This document shows, piece by piece, positions 18,235 to 37,981 of a stretch of DNA of 64,000 bases (position 1 is the stretch's first letter; the number at the start of each line of letters is the position of its first letter). The stretch comes from Polytrichum commune (taxonomy: Eukaryota; Streptophyta; Polytrichopsida; Polytrichales; Polytrichaceae). The stretch covers positions 42,056,527-42,120,526 of the forward strand of contig OX485808.1 in the NCBI GenBank assembly GCA_950295325.1, in the 5' to 3' direction. The notes below the pieces were generated by a model, which had not been told where the DNA came from, did not search any database, and saw nothing but the letters and a program-made list of their open reading frames with translations. A program made the position numbers and the translations under genes.

Positions 18235-20780
18235 TTTTCATAAAAATTTACTTTAGAAATAGCATCCAAGATTCTAACCCTCAACTTATAGGGGAATTAT
18301 TTTTACTATAGCCCTTCGAGTCATCATGGACGAGTTCAAATACATAGATGCATTGAATCCCAAACTACGCACTACTTGAATCTAGACCTAGAAACAAAAA
18401 CTAAAATAGACTTAAATTGAGTACTTCCTTGTTGTTAAAAATGACGTACTAGGTGCTTTTGACACATCTACCTAAACATAATCTCCTAAAAGCAGGACTA
18501 GATGGGACCCCCATATAGATTTGACCAAGGCCACATGGTCCAAGTCCAACCTCGCGCCGCATTCAATGCTTCCCACATGTCTAAGGTAGAAGCGTCCAAG
18601 TCCAAGCACTTAGTGATCTATTTTTGGGTCTCAAAGTGGGTGGTCGCGTACTTCAAAACGATTACCAATGTATCATTATAAGAATAAAAAAACACAATCC
18701 TTGCAATCATTCGCGAAGCCGCTTGATACGCGTGGGCCGTAGTACTCCGCGTCTTCTCTCACACAATACCGCTTCTACCGCCTTCTCTGTCCACTTGTCG
18801 TTTGGTTCACCATGATGTTTTGTGGGTTGATGTAGGGTTTTGGTTGAAGGCGACACCAAATGTCTCTGTGTGCTTCAAAAAGCAACACTTGAAGGAGGTA
18901 TGGAGATCTAACGTTTTCACTTGACTGTGGGTATGGAGTCTCTTAGGTTTTCAATTGAAGTTGAAGATTTCAGTCGGAGTCGGAGTCCTCATCCAAGTAT
19001 GTGTTGGTTGGATGGAGTGTGTTAGATTGGGGCTGCGTGACGCTTTGATGTGTGTGTTCCAACAATATATGTGGCCTTCCTGACCTAGTCTGTTAGTTTT
19101 TCAGATCTGATTTTGTGTCTTCGTAGAGTACATGAAGTGACATGTGAGGTTGTTGTTTTGGTAGACAGTTTCTTAAGTTTTGGCCCGTTGCTCTTGAGAC
19201 TTCGGACATAATTTATGTGTCACATTTGGGCGCATCTGGCACCAAAGGAACTCTATGCCGGCTCAAAATGTGCTCTTTCGCAAGATTTGTCTCTCTCCCT
19301 ATTCGGCCACGAAGCTTTACTTGGGTTATTGATATCTGTAACCATGAGATTGGAGGAGATCTGAGGAATCCGTTACTTTAAACTTGTACATCGCCACGAA
19401 GTTGTCTTGAATTTAGCACTGCTTTTAAAGTTTCCATGTTTTTGTTAATAATGATAAAACCCTTTCATGTGGTAGACTTTGTGAGTCCTATTTTTTCCCT
19501 CTTGAGTTGCAAGTGCAAGTGTGGTCATCCCTTGGCATGCTTGTAAGGCTGCGACATGGTTCTGAGGTCTTGCAAATCACTGCTAAAGCTTCAACCTTTC
19601 AATCATCAAGCTTTGAACCATTGTACTCCTTTCGAGTTATTTATTATCGGTGTCGTCATTCAAGCTACAACCTGGTCGTGTAGTTCGCCCTACCATTCTT
19701 GCGAACCTTGTAGGTGATGGAGTGAAGCAAGAAATTTTGTCAGCTGCCTCATTAAATTCAATACTTGATATGGCGGTACAATCTTCATGTAAATTTCTAA
19801 AGATGCTCCAGATTTACAGGACATTATATGTGGTTAGACGAACGGAGCTTCATCAAGCCATCTGTATCTTTAGTCTTACGTTTCTCAGGTTTCTGGATAG
19901 AAGATCCTCACAAGATTGCTCCAGAGATGCTCTATATATATATATATGTACATACGTAAATGATTGGCTTGCACTACTACATGCTAACTACCTCGGTTTT
20001 TGAGTGTAAAATAACAACCAAATCCTTCTCTTGGTTTTCTGCCATAACTAAATGTCGCTGAATTTGTTGTTGGTATGTGTAGAATCACCAACCCTCTCCA
20101 AGAGCTTCAATTTTGGTGGATTTGTAGAAACTCAATCACCAAATTTTGGCACTGCATCAAAGTGGAAGTTAGCACGCTGTGAAAATGGTACCCCTTAGGT
20201 ATCTTCCAATGTCAACATTCTTGAAAGTGTTCCATGATTTCAAGCTGAGTCTATTTTTACTTTACGGTGTTATGCCATTGAAATGTTGTCAAACTATCCT
20301 CGAGTCCATGCGAGTCTAAAATGAGATATGAAAGTGGGAATGGTAGTAATACAACTAAAATAAATACAACTAACGAGTCGATGAGTTGAAAGGTTCATAA
20401 GTGTTCACAAAAAGGGGATATCCTATTTACTCATAGTTCTTGCAATTTAGAATCAATAGATCAAATAAAACTTGAATTGCTCTGTCTCCTTCAATTATGT
20501 TCTGTATTGAATATAGGCTGATGTCTACATTTTGAACACATAGTTGAATCTCATCATTACACATGTTTTCGGTGTCTGCTTGTGATTACAAACCTTGTCA
20601 TATGTTACAAATGAAGATGGATGTCATTCTTGACAAATAGAAATTGATCTACAAATGATCACATGTGTATGAAAGAGACTTATATCATAAAGTGACTAGA
20701 ACATGTGGTGTGTTTTCATTGGGCTTGTTCATTATATGCATTCGTCACCTCTTCTAGTCTCCTAATTTTGGACTGTACCG
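18235..20780. other. Unassigned low-repeat stretch
   Basis: Moderately GC-richer near 18540-18800. Contains short ORFs (18624-18815, 19650-20003) and an (AT)n tract at about 19932-19947. No domain, splice-supported gene model or repeat family could be recognised. It could hold untranslated or promoter sequence of a host gene. Confidence 0.4.
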
Positions 20781-20932
20781 AGGTTTGGGATTTTGAAGGT
20801 AATCCAAGTGCATCAACTTGAAAAAATAATTACGTTGGGGATTCTACGACAAAACCAACATAGTTCATGGTATTTGCGCACATTGACAAGGTGGAGCATG
20901 GACATTGCTAAAAAAAATTCCTGCTCACAAGC

Positions 20933-20942
20933 GCTTTGGAAG
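20933..20942 (+). repeat. Target site duplication of the 15.4-kb MULE (left)
   Basis: GCTTTGGAAG here recurs at 36376-36385, immediately outside both terminal inverted repeats. Ten bases (or 11 counting the shared preceding C) is within the 9-11-bp range of Mutator-like elements. Confidence 0.85.
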
Positions 20943-21030
20943 GAGGGAAGCTATCTTATGAGCGATGAGCAGTGAGCGGTGAGCGGTGAGCAGTAACACA
21001 TGAGCAATGAGTAGTAACATATGAGCAATG
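20943..21030 (+). repeat. MULE terminal inverted repeat, left
   Basis: Contains GCTATCTT followed by repeated (A/G)TGAGC(A/G)(A/G) units and AGTAACA spacers. Mirrors 36305-36375. Confidence 0.85.
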
Positions 21031-21164
21031 AATCCAAATTTAGTAAAGACACACGGGTTTAGGGTACACAACCAAGTTTTTGACAAATTAATTGCATATT
21101 TTCAATTGTAAATTGCCAATATTTTAAATGAAGCAGAAGTCAAAGGGCCCTATTTCCATGGATC

Positions 21165-21330
21165 ATTTAAAACACTTTCAATCCATTGCTGGTTTTTATT
21201 ATAATAATCCAAACCAATACATGTCATTTATTGACATCCTTATACATGTAGTTACAACCAACACTTGCACAACTACTCACATTCCACAACACCAGCAAGT
21301 TGAAGTAGGTGCATAACCTCATTATACGTA
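21165..21330 (-). pseudogene. Truncated copy of the MULE transposase 3' end
   Basis: About 165 bp match 23130-23295, which spans the stop codon and last codons of the transposase gene plus its 3' flank. Shared landmarks are ACATGTCATTTATTGACAT, CACTTGCA, ACTACTCACATTC and CCAGCAAGTT. The copy lies about 1.97 kb away in the same orientation, just inside the left terminal repeat. It suggests the left end derives from a second element copy or from a rearranged repair event. Confidence 0.75.
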
Positions 21331-21454
21331 CATGTAGGTGCCATAATTGTGAGCCACTCAAACCACTCACGGGTTGAATTAAGGCCCAGAATCTACAAAA
21401 GAAAGGAAATTAGATATTAGAAATAGTCAATATGTAGGTAACTACTAGGTTTTG

Positions 21455-21655
21455 AGACATCCGCCTATGGATGCGAGTTGTGTAAGAGACTGGTATTAGG
21501 TCTGGATCAACCCGGGTTCGAATCCGGTTGGTTACATTGACTGGTGCTATCCCAAATTGAGCTAGTGATAAAGCAGGAATAATCTATAGGCGGATACCAA
21601 GAAGACGTTACTACGCGGATGTGCGTAGAATCTTCTCAATTTTATTTTATTTTTA
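21455..21655 (+). mobile_element. tRNA-derived SINE candidate
   Basis: GGGTTCGAATCC at about 21510-21521 fits the RNA polymerase III B box (GGTTCGANNCC). A weaker A-box-like GCGAGTTGTG lies about 35 bp upstream, and the element ends in a T-rich tail (TTTTATTTTATTTTTAG). CATCCGCCTAT near the start is repeated inverted (ATAGGCGGAT) near 21588. No gene overlaps it. Confidence 0.5.
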
Positions 21656-21694
21656 GAAACTTTTTATTTTTTATCCTTGTGAATCAATCAAACT

Positions 21695-23075
21695 TGTGAG
21701 CTAGGATCACCCCCACCCTTAACTGCGTCGTAATGCAGGTGGGGGATCACCCTTTCACAGTTTGTAACATGCCCACCTCCAATGGTGGTCCTTTCCACCT
21801 CTAGGTGACCCTTAATAATGAATAACCGTTTACTTTATTACTAATACTCATGTGTGTCATAACACGAACGTGAGAATCAACACATTAAGTCACACATTAG
21901 TTTTTCACCTAAATTCCTAGCTTAACTATCACCCTTCACTACTTCACTAATATTACTGCCTTAGCTTAACTTGGTTAATCCAGCTTAGTTCTCAGTTGGC
22001 CGTTGTCCTTTCATGCCCTTGGGCCTAATCACAACCAGCTCCTGGCCTCTTAGACCAACCCCGTTACCGGCCCTGTTACCGGCCATGTTACCAGTCGTGG
22101 CTAGGCTGATCCCTTGCACCCTTCCTACCACACGCGGCTCTCGCCTATCTGGTCTGAGCACCCTTCCCCTGTGCTCACAACTGTTGAGACCCCAGCCACA
22201 GCTCTCGGCCATGCAGCCATCAATTCGCATTTGTGCAACCTCCTCTCTGTGCTGATTCACCATTTAAATGAGGCTTGTGGCCTGGGCTCTTCCCCGCTCA
22301 ATTTTGATCATTCTTCACATTAGTCATGTTGTAGTGCCCTCAGAACCATTTGGTTCAAACAATGTTGGTCGCAAAGTGTGGAATTCACCTTCTCTTTTCC
22401 AGCTCACCCCTGCATTGCGGCATTGTGCCAAGTTCTTTTTGGAAAGCCGAGGCCTCCAGGCATTCAAATTCAAACAATGCCTATCCCAGCTGCGCCCTCG
22501 GCAACCTCTATCATTTGCTCCAGCTTAGCCTCCAGCCTCCAGCCTCCTTCCCCTCCTTGGCATAGCACTTCCTCCTCATTCTCGGCGGCACCCACCTAGC
22601 TCCCTACTAACTCCTCCAGCATCCATCACCAGCCTCGCATTCGGCAGCGCCTTACTCCTCGGCGGTAGCGTCCCCCTCCCCCTGTTAGCTTGTTTGTTTG
22701 AGAGAGAGCTCAGTTGTGAGAGTGGCGGCCTCAATCGCGCCTGTCCGAGTCCCTGGATCCGCACTTTACTAGGGTGCAGTGGCACCTGCCTAATTCGAAC
22801 AGTTCCCAAGCATTTTCAAGTCACATAAACCCCAGGCTTACAAGGCCTAAGGTCTAAGCCTAAGAACCACCTTAATCACCTCCTAGTCAATTCCCTTACA
22901 CCTGCTCTCATTATTCAAACACTGAGTACTAACCTCCTATCCCTAGGGTTAATTCTAACACAACTCCAATCCTCCACACTTTTTATGTTTTAATTAATTG
23001 ATGAAAACTCCAAACCTAAGTTTTAATGTGTTTTTCAGCTTGAGAACACATGTGGCCACAGAGTTTGGGCTCACA
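21695..23075 (+). mobile_element. Solo LTR-type element, family A, 1381 bp
   Basis: Starts TGTGAGCTAGG, shares the CCACCCTTAA motif of the family near its start and ends AGTTTGGGCTCACA. Flanks are AAACT (21690-21694) and AAACC (23076-23080), a 5-bp duplication with one mismatch. It is inserted just downstream of the transposase gene inside the MULE. The ORFs in it on both strands have no domain content. Confidence 0.7.
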
Positions 23076-23233
23076 AAACCGCTCACGGTTGGGTCGTAAT
23101 CTAAATAGAAATGAAGTTACTAAATCATTGAAATACTTTCAGTCCATTGCTAATTTTTATTATAATAATTCAAACCAAAACATGTCATTTATTGACATTC
23201 AAATATATGTTGCTTAATAGAACACTTGCAATA

Positions 23234-26200
23234 CTACTCACATTCTAGAATACCAGCAAGTTCAAGTAGTCGCATGACCTCATTATAGGTATATGTAGGT
23301 GCATGAATGAATTTGTCACTCTCGTAATCCACCTTGCACAAAAATCTAAACACATAATAAAGATGTTTACAATACACCCATTTTCCTTTCTTTCCCAATG
23401 CATGAGAGGACATTTTCGTGAAGTCCGGGCATGTGCAATGCAGAATGTCACCAATTGTGACACGGTATGTAATATCCTCTTTGGAGACAATGTTGATTAT
23501 CACTCCAAAACCTGGATATGGAATGGCAGTCACCCCAACTACAAAATAACCATCCATGAGTCCGGCGCTCTCCCATTTGTTTTTGTGATCCGCTGTCGGT
23601 GCGGTCGGATTGCGACGAACTGTCTTTCCAAACCTGAATGTAGGGTGGGCATCCGGGTTGGGTGGCATACGAAAATGCGAGCGAGGGATGGGAAGGGTTG
23701 CAATTGTAGAAAGCCTACGACGGGGGGATAATGCTTCCCTTTGCTGTAGTTGAAATCCGGCGTCCTCAAGTGCCAACACCTCCTCTCTTGATAGATTGGT
23801 GCCTATCTTCACCGGCCAAGTGTTAGGCACTATAGGCCAATCCAACACATATTTCTTCTTATTACCACTCACACAACGCTTGATGTCGTCAGGGCAGAAC
23901 CAAAATTCATACTCCATATTGTTGGGAGAGCGAAATTCTTTCTTGAACCCTTTGTATGTTGGAGCAGGTGTGCCATGTTTTCCAGTACCGACTTTGGCAT
24001 TGCACATCGTCCCTGTAATGGCCTGTAATGCCCAACATCGTCTAGCTGAGTTGGGTGGCAATCTTGCAATGTGCCAATTGGAAGCAAGACAATCAGTCTC
24101 TAACACAGATGTAGTATGAGTCACACCTTGTTGTGCATAATTCAACGATTCCTCTATGCGTTGACGAGTTGCACGAGTGTTAGGGCGAGGAATTGAAAAA
24201 TTCACTTTGTCGGGTCGATGAGAATCGCAATCAGCACCCGGGGGCATGTTGAGTTTTCGTTTGGTGGACCCAAATGGCTTGGACCCTTCCAATGCACAAT
24301 CTCTAGTATTGACGTCTTCTGCCCCCGGGAAAGACTTCATGGCATCAGCCAAATTTTTTGGATCTCAACACCTGGCAGCCGCCTTAAGTTTTAAGGATGC
24401 CGAATCAGGACCTTTACCATGAGACCCCCCTTTCAACCATGCACGGTAATTCGCGATTTGCATGAAGGCACGGATCATGTCATCAACAGTAGCTTCATAC
24501 AGGCAAGTCATCTTGTTGCCGGATTGTTGGAGCCATTTGTTATGAACAGTCTCGGCAAGGTTGCATGTTGGCATTTCTGCACGCTCATCTATTGTCATAT
24601 CCTACGAACAACATACAAATACGGGGTTAAGAAAAACAAGACACAAATTTATAAAAATGGAAAAAATACGGGAAGTTCAATGACATTGAATAATGCAGTG
24701 TGGTATGCACTTACAAGTAGCATATGACCACCCCATTGTCTATAACGGAAGTGCCAAAATCCCAACCACTCCGAAAGGCCAAGGATGCCTTCTTCTGTGG
24801 CAGCTCCAGATGACAACCACCAAGAACGAATCACGTGATACTTAGTCTCGGCATCGTCCATTGTTACCGCGTCCTTGTAATCCTTGCATATTTGCTTGTG
24901 TTGAAACTGCAAGGATGGTTTGATATAATTTTGTGTCACCTTATCCAAGCTTGCAGACCAGTGGAAAAGGCATGTGCGTTCACGTGCGACCATGGGCAGG
25001 CTTGGATCGCCGTCCCCATAAACCATCCGCACCGCATTCCAATTGGCTTGAGCACTGTCTGCCATGAACCCTTTGAAGTTTGTTTTTGGAACACCATTCT
25101 CGGCCATAACAACATTCAGATTTTCCCAAAAGAGAGTTTGTGCTGCACCATCTTCAGATTGCATGTCACAACACGCAATGGTCAACACCTTACAGTATCG
25201 ACTGTCGTACACATGGCAAGCCATTGTCGTCCAATCCTTCAAACGTTTGACATGGTCAAACATGATCCAAGAATTCTCCATATCTCCCCCGACTTGCATC
25301 CTCTTTACAAGCTCCACACCACTGCCCGGAAGGTCTACGGACATCTTAAAAACAAAAACCTTGTCTTTCGATTGCCCTGGGAACCGACTATCATGGACGA
25401 ACTTGAAAGCATAATGGTCTTTGAGTGCCATAATACTATCCATAGTTCCCATTCCACTACGCACAAAACGTTTTGATCCAGATACAAAATTACGACAATT
25501 TGGGGAGGCTAGAGTGCTGAATTTGTCCATGACCACCTCTAAGGAAGAACCAACCAAGTGATGGCTTTCTCCAATTGTGGGAGATCTAAGAAGGTAATCG
25601 GCCAAGAATTGTTTGCTCGCAGCCATGACTATGGCGGAATTTGTGGCTGTGGGTGTTTTCAACACTTCATTGGCAACGCACTGGTATGCCATGTCTAATG
25701 ATTCACGACATGTACCATTGGATACAGGGTGATCATGTACACCAAGATGAATGCAAGCTCTGGACATCCCAGCAGAGGCGGAATGAATGTATATAATGCG
25801 AGCAGGGCACAAAGCAATGCACACAGGTGTTGAACGACATACCTTACACTGGATAGTAGACCTAGTAGGGGCAACATTACCCACAAGAAATGGCAGAGGG
25901 GTTGAACTGGCCCATTCAGTGTTGTTGCGCAGACCCCCATTGCGATGCATGTAATCACAGTAGTCATTAGGACATTGGAGATGACCTGCACAAGTAGAAC
26001 GCCGAAAGGATAATCCAAAATCATTTTGGATATTCGTGGTTTTGGTGATGCACCAAGGATGACCGTCGCATATTTTATCCATACCATCCATGGAGCGGCC
26101 ATACGTATTTGGAACTCCAAGTGCCACAGGGGGCAAGACAAATAAAACGTCGCCGTCAATAGAAGATGGCAAGTATTTGACATCACGGACATCTATATTG

Positions 26201-26718
26201 TCAAAATCAATGAATGCAAGATCAGACTTTGACATTTTCCTAGACTTTGTGAACTTCAAGGCATCAACGATAGTCAACCCTGTAGATGACGGTGAAGGGT
26301 GCAATGGAGGGCGCTGAGAAGGTGTCATACGGTGAACCAATGTGTTGCACATAGGACTAAATGGGGATTTGGGAAGTTGTGAAGGAGTGGAGTTTTTACT
26401 TTCAAATGGAAATGACGATATGTCTGAAAGATGAACAGCAGCACAAATATCATCTTCTGAATCAGACAACACCAATACACTATCATCATTGGACTCCAAC
26501 TTAACAGTTGCAACAATGGGCATTTGAACTGTGGATGTACCGGATTCATTGGTCAATAAGACAGTTAGAGCTTGCATCTGCGATTCAGAAAGACCTATGA
26601 CCCTAAATGAACCAGGCCCTAAAATCCACACAAATCCATCTTCAGTTCTGGTCTTTTGAACCAAAATCGTTTCATACACCTCTCCATCCGCAGAGTACAT
26701 CTCTTGTTCTAAATACAT
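23234..26718 (-). CDS. MULE transposase with SWIM zinc finger (one nonsense codon)
   Basis: Two exons are clear: 26718-24715 (668 codons, ATG start) and 24601-23234 (455 codons). They are joined by a 113-bp intron with GTAAGT donor and GTAG acceptor, in phase 0. The first half has a Cys/His-rich block (around residues 240-320, for example CPNDYCDYMH). The MULE core follows: ACCDMQSEDG, GFMADSAQANWNAVR and RTCLFHW (about residues 510-590), containing candidate catalytic Asp residues. Near the C-terminus TCPDF...VYCKHLYYVF is a SWIM zinc finger (C-x-C...C-x-H). An in-frame TGA at 24367-24365 (after ...AAARC) would truncate the protein before the SWIM domain. All other codons are open, so inactivation looks recent, or the codon is a sequencing error. 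It lies between the matching terminal repeats, so it is the likely mobility enzyme. Confidence 0.85.
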
Positions 26719-27901
26719 GGTTCTTAGTTAGAGACTGAATCTCAAACTAAGCAAATCTTCCGAGACACACACAAAACCATCATCCTGAAGTGGTAGCAGG
26801 AAATGAACAAAGGATCCGGGAGCTCTAATGGTAGCCATGGAGAAAGAAAGCAATAGATGCACGTCACAATAATATTGGATGGGCGGAGATTATTATACTA
26901 AATGGTATGTACTAAAAAATGGGGTGTAGATCAAAACTTTGAATACTATAGCATCCAATAATACACAAATAGACAACTCACACTGACAGTCGAAGAATAG
27001 ATTAGGCCAAACATAGAACCCTAAACCAAACCCAATAAACTATCTCATTTGGAAACAAAACCATAGCGAACCCCAATGCACAAGTGAGATGTGGATCTTA
27101 AGTCCATGACACCATAAGTCATGTCCATTATAACATTGGGAAGAATATATGAAGAAGAGATTTAACTAATGTATATAACTTAATAAAAATATAAACTATT
27201 TAGAATACATATCTATATATCTATATATCTATGTCTATATGTCTATATCTATATATCTATATGTCTATATGTTTAAATGTTTATATGTCTATATCTATAT
27301 CTATATGTCTATATATCTATATGTTTCAATGTTTATATGTCTATATCTATATCTATATGTCTATATATCTATATATCTATGAATTCCTAAATGAAAACGG
27401 AAGAAACACGGGCACGGACATCATTGAAAAATATGTTATATAATGAACAAATACATATGAATCGATAATAACAATTTGGCGAATAATTTCACTTTTTATA
27501 TGATGTTGGGGAAGTGAAGGATTTAAACCCTATAACCTTCTTAGAATGTTCCCCAATCATGTGCAAAAAAATGATTTCGGAAAATTTCCAAAATGTACCG
27601 TATAGGAAGATTTCCCAAAAATCTACGATGTCATCAATTTCAGAGTTTTTAGAAATTCATAAGAATTTGAAATTTAATGAAAAAAATCTAATTTTTTGTA
27701 TATCACTACATATGATGTGTGTAACTATGAGAAAAAAAAATTTCAAGCTAATTAATTTTAATATGTAGGAGATATACCTATCTAAAGTTTTCTAAAATCT
27801 ATGGGTTTTGTATTTTTTTTTTCCCCACCCCCCCAACCTTTCATTCCCCTCTGAACCTAAACCTAATCCCCTTCACGTTCACGGCCGCCACGGCCGAGGC
27901 G
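26719..27901. promoter_or_regulatory. Divergent intergenic region between transposase and cargo genes
   Basis: Separates the leftward transposase from the rightward cargo. It holds a TCTATATG microsatellite (27207-27382), an AT-rich stretch, and a GC-rich block (CACGGCCGCCACGGCCGAGG) just before the TATA box. No supportable coding region; 27514-27768 is an AT-rich ORF without domain features. Confidence 0.5.
27207..27382 (+). repeat. TATCTATATG microsatellite
   Basis: Imperfect repetition of TCTATATGTCTATATCTATA-type units. The 70-codon ORF over it is spurious. Confidence 0.9.
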
Positions 27902-27909
27902 TATAAATA
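27902..27909 (+). promoter_or_regulatory. TATA box for the rightward cargo transcript
   Basis: TATAAATA follows a GC-rich block and precedes ACAACAAAAC by about 25 bp, a plausible transcription start near 27935. A short reading frame of 32 codons starts at the first ATG (about 27952). Downstream come the palindromic repeats and then the kinase-like gene. Confidence 0.5.
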
Positions 27910-28010
27910 AGGATGAGAAGGCGTTTTTACAACAAAACTTACATGAGCGAGCTTCGGTTTAGCACTGCGTATGAGAGCAAGTTTGTAGAGAAGTTGCTGG
28001 TTGGACCTGC

Positions 28011-28569
28011 TTGTGGGCTAGCGCACAAGCCTACATAAGGACTACTTCTGTTCATTTTTCCTTTCAATCATTTCAGTTACATAAGATTTGTTTAATTCTG
28101 CTGCTAAGAGTTGTTTGTGCGCTGGCGCACAAACATCTTAGGACTCTTTTTATTTACTTTGTTCTTTAGATCTATCATTTGCATACGACTTGTTGCAATC
28201 TTCTGCTGAAAGTTGTTTGTACACTAGCGCACAAATATCCTTTAGGACTATTTCTGTTTACTTTGTTCTTTAGATCTATCATTTGCATACGATTTGTTGC
28301 GCCCTTCTGCTGGAAGTTGTTTGTGCGCTGGCGCACAATCCTTTCTTAGTGCTTCAATTCATTTTTTTGCTTTAGTTCTTATATTTAGTTTAGGCTTCAT
28401 TTTATTTTCTCTAGTTTGCACTTCATCTGCTTTGGTGTTGCATTCTGCTTGTGCGTTGGTGCACAACCATTATTCAGGTATTTTTTCATTTATTTTTTCT
28501 TTACTTCTATCAATGCTTTTAAGTTTGTTATGCCCTGCTCCTGCTTTCTGGTTGTGCGCCAGCGCACAA
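28011..28569 (+). repeat. Six 18-bp hairpin palindromes at about 103-bp intervals
   Basis: TTGTGCGCTGGCGCACAA or close variants occur at 28011, 28115, 28217, 28321, 28449 and 28552. The four best-spaced intervals are 102-104 bp and one is 128 bp. The DNA between them is also repeated (CTGCTG...AAGTTG, TTCTTTAGATCTATCATTTG). They lie just downstream of the TATA box, so they would be in the leader or first intron of the cargo transcript. The 18-bp core is a near-perfect inverted repeat that can form a hairpin or bind a dimeric protein. Confidence 0.85.
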
Positions 28570-29323
28570 CCATCAATGAGGAGTAGTTCGATTTATGTAT
28601 TAGGGTTTATCTACTAATATTTGCTTGAATCTTGTTCTTAATTGCTTTTAAAAATTTCACAACTTCTGTTTTGCTTTGTTGTTGAGAATTGTTGTTTATA
28701 ATTGGATTTTGTTTTAATTGATGTTCTGAACTTCATGTGTAGCAGTACACCTCCGATCTAGTTGTGTGTCAAGTTCCAAGGCATCAACTTTCATTCCAGG
28801 TATTTTTTCACTCCATTATATTTTGGGTTTTTTATTTTTTGGTTTTATTTTGTCTTGCTTTGTTTTTGTTCTAAATTCCGAATCATTTCAGCTGGGGTGG
28901 ATGGATGCTTTATGTTTCCTCACGTCGTAGGTGTTAGGACGTGTAATTACATCGTACCCATCATTTCCAGCTGGTATGGTCCACATGATTATAATTTTCA
29001 TGTGCATATCCTGGATTTGATTTTTTACATTCAACTTCAAATGGCCCTAGCAGACGTGGATGGATGTTTCATACATTCTCACGTCCTAGGTGTTCATATA
29101 TGTATTTCTATAATATATTTTTCTTCTATCCGTGTACCAATCCATTTTTTCATTTACTTTTAAGATGTGTATCTAAATCCTATATTTCATTTCTACAACA
29201 TGAAGTATACAACCCAGACTATATGGTAATTTCATGTGGTTTTATTGACTCTTATATGCAGGTATTCATTGTTCGTTGATGTTATCCTCAACAGACTATT
29301 CAAGGTGATTATTGCTTCCAACT
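28570..29323 (+). other. Leader/intron-like region upstream of the kinase-like gene
   Basis: T-rich sequence with repeated exon-like pieces: GTGGATGGATG(C/T)TT and TCACGTC(G/C)TAGGTGTT occur at about 28897 and 29057, the second a duplication of the first. Candidate acceptor and donor sites (TTCCAG, TAGGTGT) suggest spliced untranslated exons. The ORF at 28762-29163 has no recognisable domain. Confidence 0.35.
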
Positions 29324-30812
29324 ATGGAACCTCTTCTCAATAAGCCTAATCAAATGGTCACTTTGAGTGTACAAAGCTTCCTTGTAGAATGGTGGGGTGA
29401 CATGTCTTGGGACTCAATCCATCAAAATTTTGTGTCGATGAGTATGTCCGGTCCTATCTTTTTGCGTGAGCGTGTGAAGATCATAATTGATGATTGTATT
29501 TCGCGACGTTTTCCATCATGCAAATAAATGTCCAATTATAATACTTGGAAAGACAACGTCTCTTCTAATTTTGTTTGACAAATGTCCGATGTGGTTTCAA
29601 AGGTGCATTGGAAAGTCACGCATGGTTGGACATTGGAAAAATTAGAAGCGTAAAAATTTAACTCCGATCGGTGGGAAGTGGAGATTCCACAACTCTCAAG
29701 ACGTAGAAAAACTCATGTCAAAAATTTAAACCGTGTCGATCGACACGTCATTCCTGGAGGTGGTGCTTTTCTTTTTACTTGGAGAGATGTTGTTATTGAG
29801 AAGCATGAACGACTAGGCCGTGGTTCATATGGAGTGGTGTGGAAATGTTTCATTAAGGACAATTCAGATACTGATCCATTCGTACCATATGCCATTAAAT
29901 TTTTTTTGGATCATAATGGAAATCCTCATCATGCAAGCATGAAGGAGTTCTATTCAGTGGCATCCATAGATCATGGTGGTGTTATCAAACCGTTTGCTTT
30001 CCAAACGACACCCGCACCTGCTATTTTCTTGCCTTATTGGAATGGTGGGACATTGGGAGATATGTTCAAAACTGTGAAAGACCATGGAACTAATGAGTAT
30101 GATGTTTTTCAACGTCTCACAATATTCAAGAAAAATCATCCAGAACAAATCTCTAAGAATCAAGAATTGGAGCGGTTAAGGCTTTTCTTGTTAAACCGTT
30201 GTAACCTTGCGATCACCTTCATTCAAATCATGGCCGATCTACTCACCATTCACAATGTTTTTCATTGTGATTTATCTTTTACAAACATCTTATTCCATTT
30301 TGGTGAGATGGATGACAAAAATAAAATTTACATAGGCATTGGTGATCGGCAACAATATCGTCGGATAGACGACATTCAAATCATTTCTTGCAATCTGAAT
30401 CTTTGAGACATTCTAGGCTCCAAGAACGTTGGTGGGTAGATCCTGAGTTGTTCTTTACCAAAGACCACAATACTCGTCCGTGCCACACTGACAAGACAGA
30501 GTCATATTCTGTATCAAAGATTGCAGAGGCTATTTGGGGTTTATATGTCGATCCAATATATCTCAAAGTCATTCACTCTCGTTCTTATAATCTTTTGCTA
30601 CATTGTATTCGTCGAATGTCATGCACTTCGACCACGGAGCTTCGCATGACCTTACTGATGTCATGAATCGATTGTCTCACGAACCAGATTTTCATACTTT
30701 TCCCTTCAACAAACACATCCGCCAACGTTATCTTTCTCTACCAGAACGGAATAGGGTTCATAGTCGTCAAATTGATTGTGATGATGAAATCCCTTCCAAA
30801 CGTCAGAAATAG
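29324..30812 (+). pseudogene. Protein-kinase-like gene, degenerate (MULE cargo)
   Basis: From the ATG at 29324 one frame runs to 30406 but is broken by TAA 29525, TGA 29576 and TAA 29651. The kinase fold is visible: RLGRGSYGVVWK (glycine loop), YAIKFF (catalytic Lys), a hinge region near LPYWNGGTLGDMF, and a catalytic-loop variant FHCDLSFTNILFHF in which HRD reads HCD. IGIGD stands where DFG is expected, so the magnesium motif is altered. After frame changes near 30385 and 30600 it continues with RWWVDPELFF and SVSKIAEAIWGLYVD, the activation-segment end and helix F. The last frame ends at 30812, with AATAAA at 30831. No close family is recognised. It is either a relic, or an unusual pseudokinase with unrecognised introns. 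Confidence 0.6.
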
Positions 30813-30944
30813 ATTATATATTTTTATATTAATAAAGTATTGGATTTGTAAAAAATCCATTATGTATTGTTTTGAAATATATATACTATGAAGTTATTTC
30901 TATCATTTTTTGTTTGCATTTTCATTTATGTTTTTTGTTTGCAG

Positions 30945-33900
30945 AAAACATTTTTCCTAAAGGAAAACAAAAAGACCCATCCTCCAATGCGTTACAACCT
31001 CTCTCGCCAAGAATACAAAATATTCATCAACAAGGCGTTAAATCAACAACTAGGAAAAGAAGACAAGGTGAAAACTCCACCCTTACGCGAAGGTCTCATC
31101 GCAACAAGGGACTTCAACCTCATGTTGTTCTTGAAACAGTGGAAGAAGATTGTGCATCTTCCATGCATTCAAACGATCAACCACAAGTCCATTCTAAAGA
31201 AAATACAATGACAATGTCGCAAAAATTGGAGTCACTTTTGGGACAACATCAAAATATCACTGAAGATGTTGCAACAAAAATTGTGGATAATATTATGGAT
31301 TTAGTTGCAGAACAAGTTATTGAGGAATCCACTTTAGAGAAATCGCATCAAGAAAATCAAGACAATCTGCAATATAATGATACACAAGACTCTCAAGAGA
31401 ATCACCACTTTCAGGAGACACAAACTTCTCCAGGAAATCAACACTTTCAAGAGACACCAGATTCTCAACATACTGAACAATTCCAAGAACAACAACTTTC
31501 TCTTGTGAATCAACGATCACAGCATAAATAGCATTCTTTGACATTGTCTCAAGGGACAATATCTACATCTCAATTTATTGGTGGACCTTCTGAAGGTGTA
31601 ACTAATCGTCGCAAAAAAGAGAAGGTAAATTTTATTTTCATTTGTATTAAACGGTTTGAATTTTTTTAATTTATATATATTCTCTATTATTATTAGGTTT
31701 ATATTCTTACATACATGAATATTGTGCAGAGTGAAAAAATGATATTCATGAAGGATTATGGACACCTCCGCCTACATTGGAGAACCCAACTAAACATGAA
31801 GGGAAATCCATCAAGTACACGAGAATGAAACTCTTGGAACGAAAACAAAAAATAAACTCGACATTGAGTGATATATGTGTCATGAAATATCCTGTGCCTA
31901 TCCCTTTGTGTCGAATGATTGGCATGGAGGTGGTTAGGCCCGCATTGGACGATGATGTATCAATTTTGTCACGTTTGTTTCTCAATGGTTATATTCTTGG
32001 GTCTGCATCATTTTATGTCTCGGTAGAGCATGAAGAGGGATACACGATTGATGTCAATGATGACATTGTGAATGAATGGGATGAAATTTGGAAACAAAAA
32101 AATGAAGAATTTGAAGCCTATTTGACAGAGCATGATTTGCATGCATTCAAAAATAAAATGTTTCACATTTGGAATGGAAATCATCGCTTTAAAGCATGGT
32201 ACAATACCAAAGAGATGAAGTTGGGTGGTGTTGAATATCATATAAGCCCTACATCGATAATCCTTGATGGACGAAAAAAAAATCACTCTGTTATCACATG
32301 TCTCTGCGATGATATCAACATGTAAGTATTTTATTCATTTCTATTTTGATTACCTTATATTGTTAATTTTCTTTACATGTTTCATCTTTAAGTTTTTCAT
32401 ATTTTTATATTTATGTTTATATTTTGAAATGATTCAGATCAACAGAGAAAAATGTTGTCAAACCTCGATTCATTCACACACTCTTCAAAGTGACAAAATA
32501 TGGAAGTCAACCGCTGGAATGGTGGGAAGGAAGGATTAGTCCTGAGCAAATGGCTTTGTGCAAAAAGAAAAAATCAGTAAATTCCAAAAAGTGGTATAAT
32601 GTCACACAAGAGATCCTGGTCGAACATATTTACAAGGTAAATTTTGTATTTCCTTATTTCTTTAACTATGTCAATTCATATTTATGGATTTCTAGATTTT
32701 CTTTCTTTATGATCATCAATACTTTGTATTGTACAGAGTGAAATTGAGGACGAGGTTGCAAAAGCAACTGAAAACTATATCAACTTGGAGGTTGCAGATC
32801 ACATCGGATTGCAACAAATAATTGCAACAGCGTCACAATCCATCAAAACTAAAAAACGGTCAACACTGGTTAAAATTTTGGCCATCGCTGATCCCGAAAA
32901 TGGCACAGAGTTTTTTGATGAAATCAAAAAACACTATGACAAAAATGGAGACAATGTGCAAATGACCCTTGATCGCCTCCATCGTCTTTGTCAATCTCAG
33001 GTTGATTCCAAAGAGAAAACGAATTGGCTAAAGCTCTGGAATGCTAATGATGACACAAAACATGCTGCATCGTTTCCTTTAGAAATTGGAGGAAATGATG
33101 CATTGGATCCATGGCTGACAAGAAGAACATTTTGGTGGCAGGTATTTATATATAAAGTTTACTATTTGATATGTGATATATTTATGTATCAAATATATAA
33201 TATATATGTATGTTTGATATATGTATTATGATACATAACTATTTGTATATTTGTACATTAATTATTTTTATGTATGTTATATAGCTCAAAGAGGAGGCAT
33301 GCAAAAAAATTGACTACTACATCAATCATGATGATGCAACACAACGATTGGTGTTGGACAATATGACTTCGGATGTTCCGGATGTTCTCTCATATATTAG
33401 AACATGGGAGGAAAAAATTGGGAACATGGCCTTTTTAGTGGAAATACCCACTAAGGTGAATGCAAAGACTGTGTGGAGGAACAATATATGGAAAGATCAA
33501 CCAGGTTATGCTGCAATCATGTGTCGTATAATTTATCGATACATTAAATTCATTTTGATTGCAAATGGAAAACTTCGAGGTCGTCCATCATGGTGGTCTT
33601 CTTGGACACTTGCAGAAGGAATGCTTTGGAATATTGAACAAAGAAAATGGCCATCTGCACATCGCGAAGGGGGAGGTTGGTATTTGGACCTTCCCAACGG
33701 TTCTTTACTAGAAGAAGAAACACAATTGTTTCAAGATTGCAATGCAAGAGTTGAAGAACAAAGAAGTGTTGGTATTAATGTGGGTGAAATGCCAACATTT
33801 GAAACCGAACAACCATCGGAGTCCTCCAAACAACCATCGCAGTCTTCCAAACCACATATTCAATTGAGGAAAAAAAGAAAAATAATCGATACAAAAAACG

Positions 33901-35703
33901 ACGAACAAGATATTGTCCCAAATCCAAAGCCACCAAGTGGTCGAGTGTCGTCAAGATCACAAATTGCAACTGTACCAAAACCGGGAAGAAATCTTGATTT
34001 TATTCCCAAGGTAGGCCTTGTTAAAGGTGATTGGTATGATTGTCATGTTTTTTATGAAAAACACAAAAAAACATCTCCTGATTTCAAAAAATTGATGTCA
34101 TGGATGAAAGATGTTTCTTTGGGTAAAGTAAACAACGTGAATGGAATTGTTACCAAAGCATGTGTGGACCTAATTATCGTTGATATTCCAGATGGGATGC
34201 CAATCCATGGTATTGACGAAGGGCGTACTATTCCTTCTTGGATGCAATTGAAGACATATGAATGGTGGGAGACATACGGGGGGGTCACACCCCCTTACAT
34301 TTCATAGCCACGTGTGATAAAAGTTTGCTACCCTATATTACATGCCATAGATAATTTTTAAAATTATGATATTTTTTTCTACATACACATAACCATTGAT
34401 AATATCTTTTGTATATTTTTTTGAAATTTTTAGTCATCTTCATTTTTTGTAGTAATTTGTTTAGTTCAATGTTGCGTCATTCTAGTTAGAAACGGTATGT
34501 TTTATAAAAAAAACAAATCATCAAATTTGGTTACAAATTTTTACTATGTAATAGATACCATGTATATCTACTCATGAAAAAAAATCATAAACTTTCGAAC
34601 CATTTTGGTGATGCTTTATGTAAAAAGTAGATTTTGTTTTATCGCACGTGGTGTTCAACTTGACAATGAAGTGCACCCCCCGTGGGGAGACATTGTTTGA
34701 TTTTTTGGAATCAATACTTTCAGACAATGGCTGCACGCGTATCATGTGCAATGCCAAGATGCCAAGACTGCAAGAAAAAATTGTGAGTTATGCACTAGGG
34801 ACCAGAGATCGTCCAAAACATTTTTGTTTAAGGGAGCATGTCAAAACATTCACAATTGTGAACTATTTACCACAAAATGCTCCTAACGGTATCCAAACTG
34901 CTCTTTCCAACATTCTTCTCTTGAAGAAACCATCTAGTTCATTTGCCCTCTCGGATGCTGCTAGCTACATAGATCCATTTGTGGACATCAAACAATTGGA
35001 TGTTCTGTTCAATCAAATAACGAACACAAACATGTGTTTGAACCAATGTGGACAACCTTGGAGGGGAGCTAAAGAAAAAAGCCCTTTGGTTATGCAACAA
35101 CTCATTGAAGCATGTTCTCCATTACATGGTCGTATATTGGATTTGTCCGTGGGGACAGGTGCAAGTTTTCACGCTGCAAAAGAAAGTGAAAGACATATTT
35201 TTGGTTTTGAAGCAGACGAAGAAATACACATGGGATTATTGGATGCTTTATTCCAGAGTTTGAATGTTGAAGCATCCAATGTATTTCAAGCACCCTCAGA
35301 ACCTTCCTCAAGTATTGGTCCAAATTTTGAGGATGTAGTTCCAAAGCAAGGGCGCAAATTTGTGGCCATCGATGTATCTGATTCTGAATAGTGAGTAAGT
35401 CTTCAAGCTATTGTAAATTTCATACAATGAATTTGCATGTGTACATTTATTTTTCAATATATTACTTAAACTCATATTAATATTGTTTTTTTTTGCATGA
35501 TTAGCATTGGATTGAAAGATTGGTTTGCAAAAGTACCAGCAACTCCAAATTTTGTACAAGACCTACCAATATATGCAAAGTCAATGGCACAACACATGGC
35601 ACAACAACAAGAAGTTTCACTAGAGTCATCAAGCCAATCAACGGATCTTCATCCTAGACGATTAGTAGAAATGTTCATGGACATAGAGGCCCATGAAGAA
35701 TGA
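30945..35703 (+). CDS. ParB-like / DNA N6-N4-methyltransferase-like protein, multi-exon (MULE cargo, probably damaged)
   Basis: Proposed exons: 30945-31624, 31730-32321, 32438-32636, 32737-33141, 33285-about 34283, about 34631-35390, 35505-35703. All introns are GT-AG and the last, second and third junctions keep frame. Exon 1 is Gln-rich with a basic TTRKRRQG segment and has an in-frame TAG at 31529. Exon 2 carries MFHIWNGNHRFKAW, like the GxxR box of ParB/sulfiredoxin-fold domains. Exon 5 ends with VDLIIVDIPDGMP, at the place of methyltransferase motif IV (normally DPPY). Exon 6 carries KSPLVMQQLIEACSPLHGR and ILDLSVGTGAS...GFEAD, motifs X, I and II. The order IV-X-I is that of beta-class N6/N4 DNA methyltransferases. 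One-base shifts are needed at 31730 and at the exon 5/6 junction. No start codon is certain; an upstream exon must exist. Confidence 0.55.
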
Positions 35704-36304
35704 AACTTTACATATATATTATGAAGATGTATGTTGAGAGTTCTCCAATGCCAAGTTTTCAATTGGGTTCTAATAATTAAAATCATTATATATCTAATGT
35801 TTTGACTCTTCAATGTTTGTTGTTGTACATATAGTCTTCAATTTTCCACAAATATATATATATTCAATACCACGGTCATGAACATGCACCTGTAATTAGG
35901 TTTGGTTGTGATGAAATTCTTTGTGGTATTTTGTACAAGTTGCATATTATGCACCCACTATATTTGAGTGCACACAGGAATGCACCCAAATCCATGCACC
36001 CATGCACCAATTCATTGTTAAATTCATTGTTGATTATTTTGCTACAATTGATGATATTATTGAACCGCAAAATAAAACATGTGGATGCAATAATTTATCT
36101 ATAGTTGAAATAAAGATGTATTTATATATGATAAATGTATATATGCCCATAGTCATGTGGGATTTTTTTTTCTCATTGCTCACTTCTCACAATGTTGCTT
36201 ATCATCCCCACACCTCTCCCTATCAAACCCTAAAATCAAAAACTTTTATGCCAAAATTCCACGGTTATAGGATACTAGTGGCCCTATTACCAAATATTTC
36301 ACGT

Positions 36305-36375
36305 TCCTCACCGCTCACAAGTTACCACTCATTGCTCACCGCTCATTGTTCACCGCTCACAAGATAGCACTCCCC
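36305..36375 (-). repeat. MULE terminal inverted repeat, right
   Basis: Inverse of the left terminal repeat (20943 onward): CACCGCTCACAAGATAGC near the outer end with CTCATTGCTCACCGCTCATT units inside. Confidence 0.85.
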
Positions 36376-36385
36376 GCTTTGGAAG
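36376..36385 (+). repeat. Target site duplication of the 15.4-kb MULE (right)
   Basis: GCTTTGGAAG, identical to 20933-20942. Confidence 0.85.
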
Positions 36386-37981
36386 TAGGGAGGACATTAT
36401 GAAGTGCCTTTTAGCTCAAGACGTCTTGTGGGAATTTGTTGCGCATTCAAAGGGCGATCCTAGTAAATTGAAGTTGTCTTCATATCTAGGTATGCTATCT
36501 CCTTTTATGAAGTTGAACATTTTCTCGGGTAGTTGTCACGTTCCTTGGTATAAGGATGTTGCAAAATGTGGTGAGATTGTTATCCTTGTCTTGTCATGTA
36601 GATGATGACACAAATTGATTTGATCAAACACAAGGAATGGGAATGTTGTATATTTTTTTCATTTTGAGAATTGCCACTGTCAATACCTAGCTTAGGTTAG
36701 TAATTGTATGAGTGTTGGACTTGAATGAACCATGTCAACCTCTATTCATGTTCTATGTTTGGACTTGGTTGATATGAAGTTGCACAAAATATCCGATGCC
36801 AATGTTCAATGGTTAGTTTGTAACATTATGGAATTTTGTCCATCTCCTATGGTATGGATGGGAAAAAAATTATCATCTCACATAGTGAGTTGCTACATGT
36901 AATGAGATTGTACCATCCATCCATAATCACAACACATGAAAATTTAGATAACGAAATCTCCAATCCAAAAATCATTAAGCATGGTATTGAGTTTTTCACA
37001 TCTTGTTTGTTGAGGCACATGTCTGTAAATAACCATCATGAACTTAGATTTGTTTTGTTTTCCTTAGATGTAGATATTATCATAATGGAGGTATTTTGTG
37101 AAAGTCCAAAAATGTCAGATCATGTTAAATTATTTATGTGTTAGCTTGTTCTTGATGTGATTAATTTTTGCAGAATACAAATGTTGTGAAAAACAAAGTT
37201 GGCACTTGGTAAATTTGCAAGGTGCCATTGTACTATAATAACATTGATCTAGTTGAAGTGAACATTATAATAGTTTTTGTATAATGTGCGGTTTTTGTAG
37301 AATTAACGACCAAACCAAATTGTGTAATATAAAAATATACAAATAAGTAAACAAATAAGCCAAGATCAAGAGAGAAAGAAAATCGATTTTAGAAAGCACA
37401 AGAAAGAGGGTAACTTAGTGTACACAACCATGATAGTCATAAGATTAAAGTGCGTTGGATGTCCTGTAGGTTGTTTGAAGTACATGTATCATCAATTAAC
37501 TTTCTTGAAACTAGAGTAAACCTTTATATCAAACCATTTGAATGCTTTTGGGTCATACAATTGGATGCCGAGGGAGGAAAATTGATTGCAAAGATAATTA
37601 TCATTAATGAAGAACAAAAGTTTGATGTGAAATGCATCATGAAAAATTAAACACATATGACTTACAATGATGTCATGGGGTGAACAAAAGTGTATCACAG
37701 CCGTAAATTAATAAATTCATTACAATAATTTCAGTTCCTATTAACCAAATTTTACACTCTAATAGAGATTAGCATCTACACCTTGTTATGAATTGTCATG
37801 TCTTCATTCATCAATTAGTGTCAATGTTGGAAATTTTCCATTAGAATTTAATGTTTCTTGTGGGATTTATAGGTTTAAATTCTAGTGAGCGTGCTCATCA
37901 ACAATTATAGACAATCTTCAAGCGGAGAATACCTTGAGTATTGCGATTTAGATTATTTACAACTATATCATACCTCTCAAA
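36386..37981. other. Flank between the MULE and the NLR gene
   Basis: Contains short ORFs (36399-36605, 36836-37144, 37450-37650) without recognised domains. The first becomes longer when the MULE is mentally removed, because the frame continues from left of 20933. A promoter for the NLR gene is expected here, but I cannot point to a convincing TATA box. Confidence 0.4.

Follow-up and report, generated by a model that had tools for sequence, protein, structure and literature searches.

A methyltransferase-like gene as the recurring second gene of a Mutator-like transposon lineage in the moss Polytrichum commune

A 15.4-kb segment within a 64,000-nucleotide stretch of Polytrichum commune DNA (the window) raises the question of whether the additional genes of a Mutator-like element (MULE) are passengers or working parts of the transposon. 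A first-pass annotation had described the segment as an autonomous-type MULE that stably carries kinase-like and methyltransferase-like accessory genes. We analyzed this element, which is copy A1 of subfamily A, together with its relatives in the same genome. Its features are listed in Table 1.

Table 1. Features of element A1, given as positions in the 64,000-nt window
Feature	Position	Strand	Remarks
Whole element, subfamily A copy A1	20943..36375	.	15,433 bp
Left target-site duplication GCTTTGGAAG	20933..20942	.	single copy in paralogous empty sites
Right target-site duplication GCTTTGGAAG	36376..36385	.	
Left terminal inverted repeat, begins GAGGGAAGCTATCTTATGAGC	20943..21011	+	longest-inverted-pair search
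Right terminal inverted repeat, finishes GCTCACAAGATAGCACTCCCC	36307..36375	-	longest-inverted-pair search
Transposase second exon, SWIM motif CxC...CxH	23234..24601	-	boundaries set from sister copies
Transposase main exon, 692-aa open frame	24649..26727	-	D ... D ... C-x2-H by eye
AT-rich tandem array	27209..27381	.	
Intergenic array, 104-bp units	28011..28572	.	
Palindrome TGTTTGTGCGCTGGCGCACAAACA	28112-28135		in intergenic array of A1
Palindrome core, further site	28321-28338		in intergenic array of A1
Palindrome TGGTTGTGCGCCAGCGCACAACCA	28549-28572		in intergenic array of A1
Kinase gene	29324..30812 (about)	+	PF07714
Second gene, several exons	30947..35703	+	approximate start and exon boundaries, placed by eye using GT-AG and homologues
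DGNHR exon of second gene	31735..32325	+	GNHR at 32176-32187; D reads N in A1
Middle region and methyltransferase-like exon	33285..35391	+	motif-IV position DIPDG at 34182-34195
MITE-like insertion, ~0.4 kb	34276..34685	.	breaks methyltransferase-like exon of A1
Methyltransferase-like ORF, motif X/I	34624..35391	+	PF01555 profile match
Probable last exon of second gene	35505..35703	+	by eye

In a search of positions 20700-36700, the longest inverted pair was 20950-21011 with 36307-36368, which spans 62 nt with 79% complementarity, and copies of GCTTTGGAAG directly flank A1 outside both terminal inverted repeats (TIRs). The TIRs of about 60-70 bp and the 10-bp direct repeat previously claimed were thus confirmed. 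A query made of the joined flanks and one target-site duplication (TSD) gave 23 matches in the genome, two of which were A1's own flanks; 17 of the 21 others span nearly the full query at 76-86% identity. All four paralogous empty sites examined carry a single copy of the 10-mer (two identical, two with one change) and read through it, as the first-pass annotation had anticipated for an unoccupied site. Among 14 elements read at both ends, a perfect 10-bp TSD flanks 11 (A1, A2, A3, A4, B1, B2, C1, C2, F1, G1 and H1); A5 and E1 have a 10-bp TSD with one mismatch, and that of E2 is best read as 9 bp with one mismatch. The exact outermost 21-mers occur 188 times (left end) and 222 times (right end) genome-wide, compared with no occurrence of the reversed-pattern controls. 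These counts are not due to chance: A1 is one of a large family, and the further elements with the same termini, for which the first-pass annotation had proposed a search, do exist. The same terminal ends are found in subfamilies A, B and C and related ends in H, in a comparison of these four subfamilies. MULEs are defined as making target duplications of 8-11 bp in the portion of a MULE survey used here (PMC6446971); A1 and its relatives show duplications of this kind together with TIRs. The 58 PF00504 matches in the genome mark the host as a green plant. A kinase-NB-ARC-LRR gene adjoins A1; such genes form the PNL class, which the excerpt cited describes in the moss Physcomitrella (PMC3352924), and its presence fits a moss host.

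The coding layout agrees with that proposed earlier, with a SWIM-type transposase on the minus strand and the kinase and second gene on the plus strand. Together with the TIRs, the 10-bp TSD and a SWIM-like CxC...CxH motif, this layout supports the assignment to MULE-type elements. The SWIM model gave E=0.056-0.076 in three exons (0.056 in A1), under the curated cut-off. A Pfam MULE domain was not detected in the A1 and B1 main exons (E<=1) or in that of H1 (E<=0.1), in which region the D, D and C-x2-H residues judged by eye are conserved; an AlphaFold model of the transposase from five sequences reached a pLDDT of 33.9, too poor for use. Transposases of the subfamilies read are as little as ~43% identical, and dN/dS values of 0.10-0.27 between A, B and C (0.15-0.27 between subfamilies for the main exon) show the substitution signature of purifying selection on the predicted protein.

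A1 itself is decayed and not autonomous. Its SWIM exon contains a premature stop at ~24365-24367 within a 455-codon frame that is open in copy A2; its kinase has three in-frame stops, a 1-bp deletion and a 7-bp deletion at the DWG motif, which is gone; and the MITE-like insertion in its methyltransferase-like exon is not present in A2-A5. With all three genes interrupted, the description as autonomous-type does not hold for this copy, and all five A copies that were read from end to end carry one or more broken genes. An intact kinase frame of 503 aa is found in sister copy A5 (L008:1065-2573), with the glycine loop (GHGSYG), AIK, HCDLxxxN, DWG and PE motifs expected of a kinase. The kinase matched PF07714 at 29.2 bits, over the cut-off of 23.1, and PF00069 under its cut-off. 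It was found only in subfamily A among the five subfamilies read and looks like an add-on of that subfamily. Within subfamily A it was also the sole region in which silent changes were significantly in excess (p=0.0035); the six non-kinase regions were all non-significant, including the methyltransferase-like exon (p=0.59). As to its origin, neither the methylation-associated defence kinase MAD6 (a weak NCBIfam match, E=0.0047; 15.5 bits, where the cut-off is 460) nor a mobile 708-aa kinase repeat (~25-31% identity) could be shown to be its source.

The methyltransferase-like gene is distributed differently from the kinase. A homologous second gene, divergent from the transposase, occurs in every one of the five subfamilies read (A, B, C, D and H). 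Hand merging of 150 rows left 138 methyltransferase-like loci, of which at least 60 have a transposase on the opposite strand within 25 kb upstream, and none has one on the same strand among the matches listed; random placement gave a mean of 0.9 and a maximum of 4 for the opposite-strand count in 200 draws. Furthermore, on contigs C1, C2 and C3:1-25.4 Mb, for which both lists of ends are complete, 67 of 91 exact left ends could be paired with an exact right end. The methyltransferase-like exon is present in forty of these 67 paired-end elements; another 23 do not exceed 10 kb (the three read are all deletion derivatives), and in the remaining 4, which are longer, the exon was not seen or not looked for. 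Copies with these termini therefore do not consistently lack the gene, an absence that the first-pass annotation had named as evidence against its proposal. The idea of stably carried accessory genes thus stands in so far as extra genes are stably present, but the methyltransferase-like gene, found in five of the five subfamilies read, is a core second gene of this MULE lineage and not captured cargo, whereas the kinase was found in A only and looks like an addition.

That both genes are passive cargo of host origin, as in Pack-MULEs or cargo-bearing transposons, is accordingly a reading we consider improbable. MULEs do take up host gene fragments, as described in the section cited of PMC6446971; the kinase was found in A only, and kinases distantly related to it abound in the genome; and 57 of the 138 loci have neither a transposase nor an end among the matches listed, so that these mostly unread loci could include a host copy. 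Passive capture is at odds, however, with the recurrence and divergent orientation of the second gene described above, and no stand-alone host copy was present among the loci read. It is also at odds with selection on the DGNHR exon of the second gene: separate comparisons of C1 with E1, E2 and F1 gave dN/dS values of 0.27-0.28, which shows purifying selection between lineages as judged from codon changes, with a value of 0.72 in the closest pair, C1-C2. Pack-MULEs likewise have MULE termini around non-transposase coding sequence (PMC6446971, in part), but they lack a transposase and contain host fragments, whereas a transposase is present here and the second gene recurs in each subfamily read.

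The second gene encodes, in order, a "DGNHR" domain, a middle region and an amino-methyltransferase-like domain. The DGNHR motif may be ParB/sulfiredoxin-like, a lead that applies at the level of the short motif only: no ParB profile of Pfam, PHROG or NCBIfam matched the domain. No relative turned up in viral contigs, comparison with phages gave only a tail-fibre match at E=3, and an AlphaFold model of the exon from eight sequences had a pLDDT of 36.6, likewise too poor for use. In the methyltransferase-like part, PF01555 matched the A1 ORF at E=5e-5 and 23.7 bits, under the cut-off of 26.7, and the sister A exon L024 at 29.9 bits, over it; the motif X and motif I region of a beta-class amino DNA methyltransferase is thus recognizable in L024. 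The B exon matched the same profile under the cut-off (E=0.071) and phage DNA methyltransferase PHROGs at E=1.3e-5.

These matches could mean that the product of the second gene is a functional DNA methylase of the adenine-N6 or cytosine-N4 type, which would mark the element's palindromes or TIRs and so control transposase binding or hide the element from silencing. Palindromic sites suit methylases of these classes, and the acidic motif-II residue is retained in the aligned rows, except for A copy L004, which has K there. The catalytic region argues in the other direction. Motif IV of beta-class amino DNA methyltransferases is usually D/N/S-P-P-Y/F/W, a form found in none of the five subfamilies; the corresponding position reads x-x-P-D/E-G in all of them (DIPDG, QFPDG, DYPDG, DIPEG and EYPDG), and DIPYG in one A copy, which makes methylation activity doubtful. 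In addition, one motif-I glycine present in A is absent from B, C and D, and the exons of C and H had no Pfam methylase match. We therefore consider an active methylase unlikely.

Between the two divergent genes, subfamilies A, B and C each contain a subfamily-specific array with palindromes of 18-40 bp. Palindromes number 2 in A1, 8 in A5, 16 in B1 and 8 in C1, compared with shuffle means of 0-0.05. The A core occurs at 37 sites in 408 Mb, all 37 of them inside 11 subfamily-A loci, and at up to 2 mismatches the A, B and C cores are each confined to their own subfamily among A1, A5, B1, C1, D1, D2 and H1. This arrangement resembles that of VANC, a MULE-encoded protein which, in the part of PMC5735166 cited, binds short motifs spread by tandem repeat formation in the non-coding parts of its own family; A, B and C likewise have an array of a self-family motif in non-coding DNA. 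No array was seen in D2 or H1. Each has a single perfect palindrome, which lies apart from any array, and the A, B and C cores are missing from both even when 2 mismatches are allowed. The second gene of H1 shares 67% identity with that of C, yet C's palindrome is absent from H1; array and gene are therefore not always together, which lowers our confidence in a VANC-like explanation. Compensatory changes are weak: they exceed 300 shuffles at three positions, namely at distance 12 in B-I (23 against 21), at distance 14 in C (33 against 31) and at distance 3 in A (47 against 45, from a loosely chosen site set), and at no other position.

An explanation that assigns the arrays to host proteins, as promoters, insulators or replication hairpins, and makes the second gene a mudrB-like helper of integration or transposase assembly, accommodates the case of H1 with its C-like second gene. 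The arrays lie at a bidirectional promoter-like position, and the deletion derivatives E1, E2 and F1, in which little is left of either the transposase main exon or the methyltransferase part, retain 1-2 perfect palindromes; maize mudrB is apparently required for integration, according to the passage cited of PMC6446971. Yet A, B and C share a transposase while having entirely different palindromes, which change together with the second gene; a common host factor would not be expected to give this pattern, and we regard this explanation as rather unlikely.

The two halves of the elements have different histories. In the left (transposase) half, identity is 87% for A-B, 87% for A-C and 92% for B-C, and 46-47% from A, B and C to H. 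In the right half, C and H are 67% identical and the other five pairs 36-41%; the same holds for the DGNHR exon (C-H 67%; A to B, C and H 39-42%), and a right-half tree groups C with H at a bootstrap of 99. Subfamily C thus sides with B in its transposase and with H in its second gene, showing that halves recombined between element lineages. It may instead have been the left halves that moved, gene conversion having homogenized TIR and transposase among old two-gene elements. This version, which is compatible with the other readings, predicts the same identity pattern and fits the transposase dS of only 0.17-0.18 between B and C; left-half and right-half exchange are inseparable with the lineages read, the halves having recombined either way, and we consider it less likely than not by a clear margin, though not remote.

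Taken as a whole, the data are best accommodated, in our tentative judgment and at somewhat less than even confidence, by a MULE lineage with two core genes in which the second-gene protein is VANC-like, binds the palindromes, regulates its own element and forms part of an exchangeable right-hand cassette. The SWIM-type transposase would bind and cut the shared TIRs and insert the element with 10-bp duplications. The DGNHR and DNA-methyltransferase-like protein would bind the intergenic palindromes as a dimer and regulate or protect the promoters of its own element, the role that VANC plays in VANDAL elements, with sequence-specific anti-silencing achieved through modification or through an altered, non-methylating active site. 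Palindrome array and second gene, plus the kinase in A, would make up the exchangeable cassette, so that protein and cis sites travel together. By analogy, the second gene may thus serve as a self-recognition or anti-silencing factor. A more specific form of this reading, which is doubtful though worth stating, sees a methyltransferase-like protein with an altered active site as the self-recognition factor, encoded in a swappable cis-trans cassette with its own array, and the kinase of A as possibly acting on host silencing or on the transposase. Each subfamily would then answer only to its own protein, because the cassette would pass from one transposon to another, in a manner similar to the exchange of specificity modules in bacterial modification systems.

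Known systems share parts of this organization. VANDAL/VANC of Arabidopsis (Hiun/VANDAL21) is also a MULE with an extra gene (PMC13317346, in part); VANC and the moss second gene are set side by side by description, the moss protein being DGNHR plus methyltransferase-like. The moss repeats differ in holding 18-40 bp palindromes, and the moss elements keep TIRs and 10-bp TSDs; VANDALs are called non-TIR in one excerpt (PMC13317346) and tabulated with 46-174 bp TIRs and a 9-bp TSD in another (PMC6446971). Maize MuDR, with mudrA and mudrB, similarly combines a transposase and a second gene in a complete MULE; mudrB, whose function is given as unknown in the portion cited of PMC6446971, is likened to the moss gene by layout, not sequence. 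Phytophthora MULEs with a SET domain (PMC6446971) and HarbingerS (PMC12730594) are likewise DNA transposons with a chromatin-modifying enzyme, but the enzyme is a SET histone methyltransferase and the hosts are oomycetes; palindrome arrays are not mentioned in the extracts used. Fungal TET/JBP transposons, including IS3EU with an alpha-kinase, also unite transposase, kinase and DNA-modifying enzyme, have transposase and kinase in opposite orientations, and show movement of the modifying gene between lineages (PMC12730594, in part); they differ in transposase superfamily, 6-bp TSD, dioxygenase, alpha-kinase rather than Pkinase, and fungal hosts. In Mariner elements of large viruses a transposon-encoded methyltransferase lies next to the transposase, as here, but these are mariner elements of viral hosts with an endonuclease partner (PMC3627910, in part). 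The earlier analogy with fungal giant transposons is unnecessary, closer parallels being the MULEs that have a second gene (mudrB, VANC). Consistent with the earlier statement that no named plant MULE with this gene set is known, none turned up in literature searches; Table 1 of the MULE survey, in its accessible portion, gives SET, FAR1, PMD and some unknown second ORFs, but includes neither a DNA-methyltransferase-like nor a kinase second gene and lists no host among the bryophytes (PMC6446971).

Several MULEs have second genes, few of them with a known job, and VANC is the best understood of those compared here, as far as the cited extracts go. The recurrence of a methyltransferase-like partner, together with unique palindromes as its candidate targets, makes transposon self-recognition directly testable in a moss, and the putative regulatory half of a transposon can recombine between lineages independently of the transposase.

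The first-pass annotation described a Mutator-like element (MULE) bounded by terminal inverted repeats and a 10-bp direct repeat, and our analysis of its ends confirmed this. An inverted pair of 62 nt, 79% complementary and the longest in the region, lies at the ends of the element, here called A1, and GCTTTGGAAG flanks it on both sides. Searches with the outer ends, as the annotation had proposed, returned at least 40 scored genome matches each for the first 101 bp (98-100% identity) and the last 119 bp (89-100%); the exact end 21-mers occurred 188 and 222 times genome-wide, compared to 0 for the control pattern read backwards. Among 14 elements with both ends read, the 10-bp duplication was perfect in 11, had one mismatch in 2, and read as 9 bp with one mismatch in 1. 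A query joining both flanks with a single target copy gave 21 genome matches besides the window, 17 of which span nearly the full query, and all four fetched matches carried a single 10-mer without insertion (two exact, two with one change). Thus, the predicted read-through of one 10-mer was found, but at places that are paralogous rather than allelic, since the target site is a repeat. Because 9 of the 21 matches share its chromosome, a cluster of PNL (kinase-NB-ARC-LRR) genes, a class described from a moss (PMC3352924), may contain or adjoin the element. The PNL-type gene in the window may be broken, as its frames overlap.

In A1, the transposase exons are followed by the kinase and a multi-exon second gene (DGNHR exon, middle region, methyltransferase-like exon) in the opposite direction. 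Pfam matched the kinase as well as the C-terminal portion of the amino DNA methylase PF01555, the latter with 29.9 bits in a sister exon (L024; cut-off 26.7) and 23.7 bits in the window copy; no MULE domain was found in the Pfam search of the element's genes. The window copy is damaged: its SWIM exon has a premature stop, its kinase has three stops and two deletions, of 7 bp at the DWG motif and of 1 bp, and its methyltransferase-like exon has a 0.4-kb MITE-like insertion. All five fully read A copies have at least one broken gene, and intact frames of single exons are present in other copies.

Features of the window, members of the MULE lineage and neighbouring loci
Feature	Position or sequence	Size	Remarks
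Whole element A1	20943-36375	15,433 bp	both ends and flanking duplication
Transposase main exon	24649-26727, minus		part of transposase with SWIM-motif exon
PNL-type gene	38149-43398		144-bp LRR tandem repeats
Subfamily A		14.8-15.6 kb	five copies, with kinase
Subfamily B		11.7-11.9 kb	two copies
Subfamily C		12.7-13.1 kb	two copies
E1, E2		6.0 and 6.5 kb	internal deletions of C
F1		9.2 kb	internal deletion of C plus an insertion
G1			B with an insertion
A palindrome	TGTTTGTGCGC..GCGCACAAACA
B palindromes	AAACCCTGTGCGTTAACGCACAGGGTTT and GTTTGGGTCG..CGACCCAAAC
C palindrome	AATAAGGGTGGCCGTTAACGGCCACCCTTATT
B intron array	B1 2330-2580 (L010); B2 2330-2579 (L011)		GTTTGGGTCG palindromes
H1 transposase frame	H1 3073-5742, minus (L033/L034)	890 aa	N-terminal domain duplicated
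Frames adjoining D-family element	L035:84-2346	233 and 540 aa	possibly another transposon
Dispersed kinase repeat	L018:681-2804; L028:3887-6088 (G000:C2)	708-aa frame
Two elements, same orientation	G000:C1:9396519-9424450	11.7 and 14.9 kb	1.35 kb apart
Light-harvesting protein cluster	G000:C5:1751760-1846160		14 frames, equal scores

A, B and C are three subfamilies with common ends; families D and H are more distant. The ends of H are related to these and its 10-bp duplication is perfect; no element ends were found in the D family. The N-terminal domain that is duplicated in the H1 transposase also occurred at other loci in the transposase search, in frames of up to about 2,500 aa. Both the kinase and the methyltransferase-like gene had been annotated as accessory cargo. 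The kinase looks like such an addition in A; none was found in B1, B2, G1, C1, C2, D1, D2 or H1, and close kinase matches genome-wide are A or A-like loci or fragments. The element's kinase (L008:1065-2573) has a weak NCBIfam match, far below cut-off (E=0.0047), to MAD6, a kinase belonging to a methylation-associated defence system of bacteria. A separate dispersed repeat, with a left boundary common to the three copies compared, encodes a 708-aa kinase about 25-31% related to that of the element and accounts for many genome matches to it with nearly equal scores; a neighbouring 734-aa frame has a RING finger match below cut-off.

The methyltransferase-like gene was recovered in other elements with the same ends, but its accessory status did not hold, as the second gene was found in all five families read (A-D and H). 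Where end lists were complete (genome contigs C1, C2 and C3:1-25.4 Mb), 67 of 91 exact left ends had a partner right end no more than 30 kb away, and 40 of these 67 elements contain the methyltransferase-like exon (25 by genome search and 15 more, including G1, by reading). Another 23 are at most 10 kb long, and the three of them that were read are all deletion derivatives; the other four are a C deletion derivative (L052), one in which the exon was not found in the last 1.8 kb (L053), and two pairs of 26-28 kb. Among 138 methyltransferase-like loci (150 match rows merged by hand), at least 60 have an opposite-strand transposase match no more than 25 kb upstream, compared to at most 4 after random placement (200 draws), and none has one upstream on the same strand among the transposase matches listed; 57 have neither transposase nor element end among the matches listed. 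The second gene belongs to the core of the lineage.

Between subfamilies, transposase dN/dS was 0.15-0.27 in the main exon and 0.10-0.11 in the SWIM exon, whereas close pairs were less constrained (main exon, B1-G1 0.70 and B1-B2 0.45). In the DGNHR exon, dN/dS was 0.27-0.28 for C1 against each of E1, E2 and F1; the closest pair, C1-C2, gave 0.72. Most changes inside subfamily A look neutral, as expected after insertion, and only the kinase showed an excess of silent changes there (30 silent, 38 replacing, p=0.0035).

Motif IV, the catalytic motif of amino DNA methyltransferases, usually reads D/N/S-P-P-Y/F/W. The second protein differs at this position, with DIPDG in A (DIPYG in one copy), QFPDG in B, DYPDG in C, DIPEG in D and EYPDG in H, while the acidic motif-II residue is retained in the aligned rows. 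The DGNHR motif, which we take to resemble ParB-like domains, received support for this identity from none of the tools tried.

Perfect inverted repeats (arm of at least 9, loop of at most 2, G+C of at least 35%) were sought in an unbiased scan, which detected 2 palindromes in A1, 8 in A5, 16 in B1 and 8 in C1, compared to shuffle means of 0 to 0.05, as well as one each in D2 and H1 and 3 in the remaining 48.6 kb of the window. Those of A, B and C sit in intergenic arrays, and in B also within the transposase intron as a second cis array. Their sequences are subfamily-specific: at up to 2 mismatches, the A, B and C cores were not found outside their own subfamily in seven elements, and D1, D2 and H1 contained none of them. 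All 37 sites of the A core in 408 Mb fall into 11 loci, every one with a close kinase match. The C core has 70 sites, 13 of which were compared with the end pairs where end lists were complete: a pair encloses 10 of them, 2 adjoin just one end, and the last has no end nearby among the ends listed. Covariation of the palindrome arms was weak.

The two halves of the element have different relationships. Over gap-free columns, the transposase halves of A, B and C are 87-92% identical mutually and 46-47% identical to H, while the second genes of C and H are 67% identical and the other five pairs 36-41%. Correspondingly, the right-half tree joined C and H (bootstrap 99), and the left-half tree placed A, B and C close together and H far away, with low support (52) for the branching inside A/B/C. 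At the DNA level, the resemblance of A1 to B1 and C1 ends before the intergenic arrays and returns only near the right end, for about 180 bp. Together, the similarity break, identities and trees show that the left part has recombined, in either direction, with a right part comprising the array, the second gene and, in A, the kinase.

Transposons with DNA- or chromatin-modifying enzymes are known elsewhere, as indicated by parts of PMC12730594 and PMC3627910. A MULE with this kind of second gene is absent from the portions of the 2019 MULE survey (PMC6446971) that cover second genes and SET, FAR1 and PMD motifs: none is methyltransferase-like or a kinase as here, the words methyltransferase and kinase gave 0 matches, and no bryophyte host is tabulated. 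The second gene could alternatively encode an active methylase or a mudrB-like helper, or be passive cargo. Given the array position, the fact that A, B and C, with one transposase in common, differ in both array and second gene, and the precedent of VANC, the anti-silencing protein of VANDAL MULEs, we consider it most likely that the array is a recognition target of the second protein encoded beside it. A strict pairing of array and gene is disfavoured by H1, whose second gene resembles that of C but which lacks the C palindrome. Such self-recognition would allow the second protein to control or protect the element that encodes it.
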